From positions 1-54,647 of the forward strand of contig CANHQZ010000011.1 in the NCBI GenBank assembly GCA_947463125.1: a DNA stretch of 54,647 nt. The letters are read 5' to 3'. Below the pieces are notes generated by a model, which was given only the letters and a program-made list of their open reading frames with translations, did not search any database and was not told the DNA's origin. Positions 1-1,199 of this stretch are shown here, in pieces. The first letter of the stretch is position 1. Each line of letters opens with the position of its first letter. The position numbers were made by a program, and so were the translations under genes. This DNA comes from Flavobacteriales bacterium (GTDB lineage: Bacteria > Bacteroidota > Bacteroidia > NS11-12g > UBA955).

Positions 1-484
1 CCCATCGCTTGGGATTTTCCTCCATGTATTTTATAAAATTTCGGTATGCGTTTTCATTTCTTACGATAACATCATGAAATGAACGCTGCCATTGAAATTC
101 AAAATTTCCCGCGTCGCGAATATTTTTGGATGTTGTTGTCTTGTACGCACCCATAATGGATGAAACCGATTTTATTTTTAAATTGGGTAGGGACAGGTCG
201 CGACCTGTCCCTACATCGTTTTGAATTGCATTTCGTTTAATTTCCATCAAAATATGGACATGGTTTGGCATTACCACAAAACCATGTAATTTCAAGTATA
301 AATATTGATTCTGCATCCATTCAATTTGTTCCCGGGCGATTTTACCAAATTCATTTAAAATCATACTCCCATTTACAACTTCACCAAAGTGACATTCATG
401 GTTTAAACAACATGAGGTAATAAAATAAAGAGCATCCCGTGAGTAATCAAACCCTTTTAATCTATTGGCTTTGCGATTTTTCAA
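1..484 (-). CDS. REP-associated tyrosine transposase (Y1/HUH family), cut by window edge
   Basis: Reading the minus strand gives about 161 residues of a single-strand DNA transposase of the Y1 (IS200-like) superfamily, REP-associated group (RAYT). The HUH metal motif is visible as PNHVHIL, and the family's C-terminal block follows: FQWQRSFHDVIVRN, then a Tyr/Asn-rich helix (NAYRNFIKYMEENPKRW) at the window edge. The last residues lie outside the window, so intactness is unknown. I see no ATG at the start; the frame opens near a TTG at 484, giving MKNRKANRLKGFDYS, which resembles the usual family N-terminus. Such proteins bind and cut palindromic REP sequences. Here the gene itself contains a perfect 28-bp palindrome at 187-214, in frame, between the HUH block and the following strand. 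Family assignment is fairly sure; the start is not. Confidence 0.85.
   Translation of the reverse strand, partial: MKNRKANRLKGFDYSRDALYFITSCCLNHECHFGEVVNGSMILNEFGKIAREQIEWMQNQYLYLKLHGFVVMPNHVHILMEIKRNAIQNDVGTGRDLSLPNLKIKSVSSIMGAYKTTTSKNIRDAGNFEFQWQRSFHDVIVRNENAYRNFIKYMEENPKRW
187..214. repeat. 28-bp perfect palindrome inside the transposase gene
   Basis: The two 14-bp halves (GTAGGGACAGGTCG and its exact reverse complement) meet with no loop. The outer bases TAGRGAC/GTCYCTA are shared with the palindromes at 1072 and 1137, while the core differs. Read on the minus strand it encodes VGTGRDLSLP as a loop within the transposase, so the gene stays open. Confidence 0.9.
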
Positions 485-612: not shown

Positions 613-1047
613 ATGCACACACCCCACAAAGCCCCCAAAACCATTGGTATTTTCATGAACCACACACGCGCCCTGTTTTTCATTCCGGAAAACGGCCCGC
701 AGCAACCGGCACCACTGGAATCAGGCATCGAAAATCGATTACGCTATCCCGGCGAAACCCATCCCGGCGCCAATGTGGGCAATTTCCGCTCCACCAATAA
801 CGAATACAGCCGTCACAACCGCGAAAACAACCAATTAAAACAATACCTGCAGTCGCTGTCGGAATACCTGGAACACGTGGATGCCGCGCTAATTCTGGGG
901 CCCAAAACCCTGGTAAACCGATTTAAAAACCACATAAATGGAAACAAAAAATTTGCGGGCAAACAATTAAAATTCGAGCAGCAGGACAAACTCACCCCTG
1001 CCCAATTCCACGTGGCCGTGAAAAAATTCGCGGCAACGCTGGTGTGA
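613..1047 (+). CDS. baeRF/VLRF1-like (eRF1 domain-fold) small protein
   Basis: A 144-residue protein resembling the small bacterial eRF1-type proteins often labelled translational machinery or host-attachment proteins. The family signs I see are an N-terminal strand ending in MNHTRALFF (usual form: I-x-M/I-D-H-x-x-A), a charged middle, and a C-terminal Rossmann-like half with AALILGPKTLVNRFKNHI followed by LTPAQFHVAVKKFAA. In these proteins the ILGPG-like loop and the 'T..Q..A.V..FF' end are typical. The ATG at 613 puts the first strand (KTIGIF) in the expected place; an internal ATG at 655 would delete it. No transmembrane segment or signal peptide. It stands alone, followed by two palindromic repeats. 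Function in ribosome rescue is only an inference from the fold. Confidence 0.5.
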   Translation: MHTPHKAPKTIGIFMNHTRALFFIPENGPQQPAPLESGIENRLRYPGETHPGANVGNFRSTNNEYSRHNRENNQLKQYLQSLSEYLEHVDAALILGPKTLVNRFKNHINGNKKFAGKQLKFEQQDKLTPAQFHVAVKKFAATLV

Positions 1048-1071
1048 AATAACCATGGCCGTGTAAATGCA

Positions 1072-1097
1072 TAGAGACGCACAATTGTGCGTCTCTA
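1072..1097. repeat. 26-bp perfect palindrome, copy 1
   Basis: TAGAGACGCACAA followed directly by its reverse complement. The same 26 bp recurs at 1137. Its ends match those of the palindrome inside the transposase gene at 187-214. Confidence 0.9.
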
Positions 1098-1136
1098 CGT
1101 CCATGGTTAAACCCCATACGACATGGGCGACATCTA

Positions 1137-1162
1137 TAGAGACGCACAATTGTGCGTCTCTA
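1137..1162. repeat. 26-bp perfect palindrome, copy 2
   Basis: Identical to the palindrome at 1072-1097, 65 bp downstream. Both lie in the gap between the ends of the genes at 613-1047 and 1200-2531, and both are followed by C, extending the 3' arm to CTCTAC. Confidence 0.9.
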
Positions 1163-1199
1163 CAGACACGTGTCTAAACCCGTGGTGAACGATTGTCGC

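Follow-up and report, generated by a model that had tools for sequence, protein, structure and literature searches.

A REP-type palindrome lies in frame within a RAYT transposase gene of a Flavobacteriales bacterium and recurs in related genes

Why does a transposase gene carry, within its own reading frame, a palindrome of the kind on which such enzymes act? The question is raised by the start of a contig from a Flavobacteriales bacterium (assembly GCA_947463125.1; 85 contigs, 2.34 Mb). The whole contig of 54,647 nucleotides (CANHQZ010000011.1, here C11) is referred to as the window. It opens with a gene of the RAYT or TnpAREP family, transposases associated with repetitive extragenic palindromes (REPs), and this gene holds a perfect 28-bp palindrome. 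TnpAREP proteins of E. coli and other bacteria bind and cut single-stranded hairpins with a GTAG foot (PMC8266576). The likelier answer, in our view, is that the enzyme's own REPs entered the RAYT gene and persist in loops that tolerate them. The analysis demonstrates the palindrome itself, its frame, its position in a loop, its recurrence among related RAYTs, and how seldom it occurs in other genes; the route by which it arrived is inferred.

The open reading frame (ORF) has a probable TTG start at position 484 and contains the motifs NHVH, FQWQ (W[Q]), and YMEENP (Y-x3-NP). It matches the Y1_Tnp profile (E 6e-6) and the NF047646 model (REP_Tyr_transpos; E 4e-15), the latter at 56 bits, below the 80-bit cut-off. 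Because the contig starts within the gene, the 3' flank and the final residues of the protein are absent. An AlphaFold2 model of the protein (pLDDT 88) was matched by Foldseek to IS608, ISDra2, and the E. coli TnpAREP–REP complex 4er8, and the predicted structure has the HuH Y1 fold. A PDB sequence search gave a sole match, to an unrelated mitochondrial protein, which was judged spurious.

A preliminary description of this DNA had reported the perfect 28-bp palindrome in frame in a Y1/RAYT gene, and both its coordinates and its sequence were confirmed (Table 1). By our estimate, about 2e-6 such palindromes are expected per 484 random bases (4^-14 per centre). In the AlphaFold2 model, the encoded peptide falls in a loop, modelled at low confidence, that joins the HuH strand (residues 75-82) to the helix that follows it (107-124). 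The insert is predicted to lie outside the core of the fold and would leave the domain intact. Two features of TnpAREP subclass 2.4 are present. These are a variable insertion between beta3 (HuH) and alphaC, at residues 83-106, and a GTAG foot at both ends of a REP that lies in the gene with the frame kept. The window gene fits subclass 2.4 as set out in the main text of Quentin et al. 2018 (PMC6006769). Searches of the literature by the letters of the palindrome and of the peptide found nothing.

Recurrence was assessed in 186 distinct RAYT ORFs, collected at the levels of genus, family, class, and phylum (Bacteroidota) on the basis of similarity to a protein query or to the protein family. 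An internal perfect stem (at least 12 bp, loop of at most 6) was found in 63 of them, compared with 1 of 930 dinucleotide shuffles and 1 of 319 neighbouring ORFs (265 kb). With near-perfect footed copies included, 73 of the 108 RAYTs of the main phylum block carry one, and 35 have no footed copy. High-scoring NF047646 members served as a contrast group and had no footed in-gene copies (0/8); under a looser test, an unfooted palindrome was found in 2 of 26 loci. The in-gene palindrome proves to be the rule among relatives of the window RAYT, not an accident. Its sequence tends to be common to related RAYTs and differs in distant ones. The earlier claim that a RAYT gene holds a palindrome of the RAYT-substrate type is supported, and the feature is genuine and recurs, as seen from the enrichment over shuffles and neighbouring ORFs, the footed copies of the main phylum block, and the phase bias described below.

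Two places in the protein accept the insert. The main one is the loop after the HuH strand, where most copies start 12-21 residues past the HuH motif. The rarer one is the turn of an N-terminal beta-hairpin, after FGE[IV]. A copy precedes the HuH motif in 14 RAYTs, 5 of which have a copy after it too. On a quick tree, the label for the N-terminal site changes at least 8 times, with 5 changes forced by well-supported branches. The same 28-mer is also found in different loops of related RAYTs (L081/L163 vs L130/L173).

The reading phase of the inserts is uneven. The centres of perfect copies are distributed 51 (GTA GGG...) : 10 : 0 over the three phases, and once near-perfect copies are counted as well, the bias lessens to 75:23. 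The empty phase is the one in which the TAG of GTAG would read as a stop. The 51:10 split of the two open phases needs a cause other than this stop codon. In some RAYT genes the 5' half of the palindrome is repeated in tandem, in frame, and each such array ends in one full palindrome (Table 1). At L264, L282, and L359, the arms of the in-gene copy pair well past the GTAG feet, giving stems of 22-26 bp, perhaps from hairpin-templated repair.

Within the source genome, where counts rest on patterns for double-foot palindromes, two RAYTs pair off with two palindrome subfamilies. The window type (GGGACAGGTCGCGACCTGTCC) is represented by the window copy and three others, one exact (C79:37-64) and two diverged (on C38 and C8). 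The GAGACGCACAATTGTGCGTCTC subfamily has two copies near the window gene and others on C3, C7, and C65. A second RAYT gene, at C3:14906-15424, holds a palindrome of the GAGACGCACAATTGTGCGTCTC type in frame, read as VETHNCVSLQ. This insert lies directly after FGEI and before the HuH motif, a site that differs from that in the window RAYT. The preliminary description had placed the 26-bp palindromes at 1072 and 1137 in the same family as the 28-bp one. Both are indeed perfect and the feet are common (GTAGRGAC/GTCYCTAC), but the arms differ (ACAGGTCGCGACCTGT vs GCACAATTGTGC). Since the arms at 1072 and 1137 match the palindrome inside the C3 RAYT, the palindromes of that description go with two different RAYTs. 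Further family members, which it had proposed to search for, were found elsewhere in the genome. No such palindrome lies near the third Y1 gene (C77), and no REP of the same subfamily was seen in the 5 kb scanned on the 5' side of the window RAYT, whose 3' side is lost where the contig stops. An inverted repeat, TAACCATGG...CCATGGTTA, flanks the palindrome at 1072 (window 1047-1110), and a 144-aa ORF at 613-1047 (+) has no Pfam or NCBIfam match.

Copies in other genomes were matched by a pattern of fixed length and fixed foot, which misses diverged REPs. Under this pattern, the single copy in each of G408, G431, and G589 lies in a RAYT gene, as do 2/2 palindromic copies in G660 and 3/3 in G091. 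Copies occur on both flanks and inside the RAYT gene in G429, G676, and G505. Between more distant RAYT relatives, most differences in the palindrome are paired, with both arms changed together. This count is biased by ascertainment (pairs were chosen as palindromic, and one-sided decay is under-counted) and is not taken as proof of selection. Locus L295 was considered as an empty site and ruled out, as it holds a decayed palindrome. Neither foot of the in-gene copies is better kept (21 vs 18 discordant, p 0.75). Among the mismatches of imperfect in-gene copies, those compatible with G.U pairing in the sense strand are not favoured (31 G/T vs 41 A/C, p 0.29).

A gene-blind scan of genome contigs from many phyla for the exact 28-mer found at least 127 copies in at least 119 stretches. 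The groups include Nitrospinota, Bacteroidota, Spirochaetia, Fibrobacter, Omnitrophota, Patescibacteria, and Methylococcales. An identical palindrome across many phyla (L064-L182) points to wide transfer of the RAYT/REP pair or to strong sequence constraint. Of the 127 copies listed, 11 fall within the reading frame of a RAYT, and another 8 are no more than 1 kb from one. By our estimate, RAYT coding DNA accounts for well below 1% of the scanned genomes, and 11 of 127 is therefore a large excess. The 28-mer also occurs in frame in non-RAYT genes of diverse bacteria (Table 1). Besides AroE, the hosts include YchF (Paceibacterota), a dihydroorotase-like enzyme, an integrase-like protein, and a DNA methylase.

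Table 1. Coordinates of the window features and of in-gene copies at other loci
Feature	Location	Strand	Remarks
RAYT/TnpAREP gene (Y1, HuH nuclease)	window 2..484	minus	161 codons present, 3' end lost at contig end
Perfect 28-bp double-foot GTAG palindrome GTAGGGACAGGTCGCGACCTGTCCCTAC	window 187..214	none	in frame, VGTGRDLSLP, residues 91-100
Perfect 26-bp palindrome (1072-1097) + GTAG foot	window 1072..1098	minus	subfamily GAGACGCACAATTGTGCGTCTC, matches palindrome in C3 RAYT
Second copy of GAGACGCACAATTGTGCGTCTC-type 26-bp palindrome (1137-1162) + GTAG foot	window 1137..1163	minus	65 bp further
5' half-palindrome array in RAYT	L159:557-1222		21-nt units
5' half-palindrome array in RAYT	L087:4038-4697		27-nt units
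5' half-palindrome array in RAYT	L181:5680-6468		~54-nt units
AroE, Roizmanbacterium	L134:6436-7317	plus	two perfect palindromes + half-site
In-frame palindrome in other gene	L075:6744-7814	minus	
In-frame palindrome in other gene	L110:2752-4059	plus	
In-frame palindrome in other gene	L179:5086-5634	plus	
In-frame palindrome in other gene	L119:1281-2480	plus	

A RAYT acting on single-stranded GTAG-footed hairpins would multiply REPs near and within its own gene, and local insertion or copying by this activity would be the simplest account. Survival would require that a copy leave the frame open and that its peptide be placed in a surface loop, either between beta3 and alphaC or at the turn of the N-terminal beta-hairpin. 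Some copies would later have grown by slippage into half-palindrome arrays. Besides the enrichment in RAYT ORFs, the gene-blind copies in or near RAYTs, the phase bias, the repeated use of the N-terminal site, and the occurrence of one palindrome in different loops, we count for this account the pairing of RAYTs with subfamilies in the source genome, the three genomes with copies both flanking and inside the gene, and the resemblance of the modelled window RAYT to the structure of TnpAREP in complex with a REP hairpin (4er8). That the in-gene palindrome may serve as a cleavage target is plausible from the chemistry of E. coli TnpAREP (PMC8266576). Several points weigh against entry of the enzyme's own REPs. 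Neither an insertion event nor activity of the enzyme was observed. The query that collected the genes held the palindrome peptide, a mild bias that possibly acts upward. A dispersed family that spills over into the gene would not readily give the RAYT-only copies of five genomes. Identical palindromes are shared by most RAYT pairs at 74-93% protein identity, which is more agreement than neutral inserts should have, although the pairs had been chosen for perfect palindromes. These last two observations favour the main alternative, possible though unlikely, in which selection keeps the in-gene palindrome as the enzyme's own recognition site, making gene and cognate site inseparable. After transfer to a new genome, the RAYT could then act on its own gene, to mobilise it, copy from it, or nick and limit it. 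Near-perfect pairing in most main-sample members and the paired two-arm changes among distant relatives speak for it as well. However, the choice of palindromic pairs hides one-sided decay, decayed copies such as L295 exist, and a footed copy is lacking in the 35 main-sample RAYTs noted above. More doubtful still is that, in the lineage of the window RAYT, the cognate palindrome is built into the gene, kept by selection, and movable between the two surface loops. Enzyme and site would then be self-contained, with the in-gene palindrome the sole copy found in some genomes.

The preliminary description had also proposed a self-regulating hairpin in the mRNA. As part of the transcript, the palindrome could fold into a strong hairpin, which might control translation or stability of the transposase. 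This proposal found no support, as there is neither an excess of G.U over A.C on the sense strand nor a strand preference of the foot, and we consider it very unlikely. Control of this kind is rarely exerted from so far inside a coding frame, which was counted against it. Intragenic REPs are known (PMC3733652), and the in-frame copies in housekeeping genes (YchF, dihydroorotase-like, AroE) are what would be seen if REPs landed anywhere and some fell in a RAYT gene irrespective of its being one. Such chance insertion is the reading we credit least. It was rejected by the enrichment in RAYT ORFs, 63/186 against 1/319 in neighbour genes, and the 11 gene-blind copies in RAYT frames argue against it too. 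Selection on the peptide that the insert encodes, and not on the palindrome as DNA, would suit the 51:10 phase bias, which is towards VG/VE...L. Yet the peptides vary widely (VGTGRDLSLP, VETHNCVSLQ, VGAIHELPLR, VKAHGHALLQ) while palindromy stays, and the loop is modelled at low confidence, making this reading highly improbable.

To our knowledge, the mechanism by which REP palindromes spread in vivo is still unproven. Genes that hold an enzyme with its likely substrate, and whose relatives vary in loop and palindrome, are natural pairs for the study of specificity and movement. The enrichment figures indicate that an in-gene copy is typical of the subclass. General annotation does not reveal this, an example being the NCBI model, whose cut-off lies above the score of the window gene.

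Among known systems, the E. coli TnpAREP/REPtron (4er8; PMC8266576) shares the HuH Y1 fold and a GTAG-footed hairpin substrate. There, the REPs flank the gene and the stem needs a bulge, whereas an in-gene copy is not described in that paper's text. GTAG-tagged palindromes do occur inside ORFs (Di Nocera 2013, PMC3733652), but the main text of that work names DNA repair genes and others as hosts, with no RAYT gene among them. As covered there, Rickettsia palindromic elements (RPE) are likewise palindromes in frame in protein genes. RPE-4 and RPE-6 are tagged by CGTC, and the same text gives CGTC repeats no transposase association; the tag of the window palindrome is GTAG. The window RAYT with its in-gene palindrome is of a kind already described by Quentin, Siguier, Chandler, and Fichant (2018, PMC6006769), who found tnpAREP genes of subclass 2.4, with Bacteroidetes among the hosts, to contain REPs in frame. 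Relative to the main text of that paper, our additions are the N-terminal, pre-HuH site (14 RAYTs), the half-palindrome arrays, the phase bias, the enrichment figures, and the copies found in RAYT genes only.
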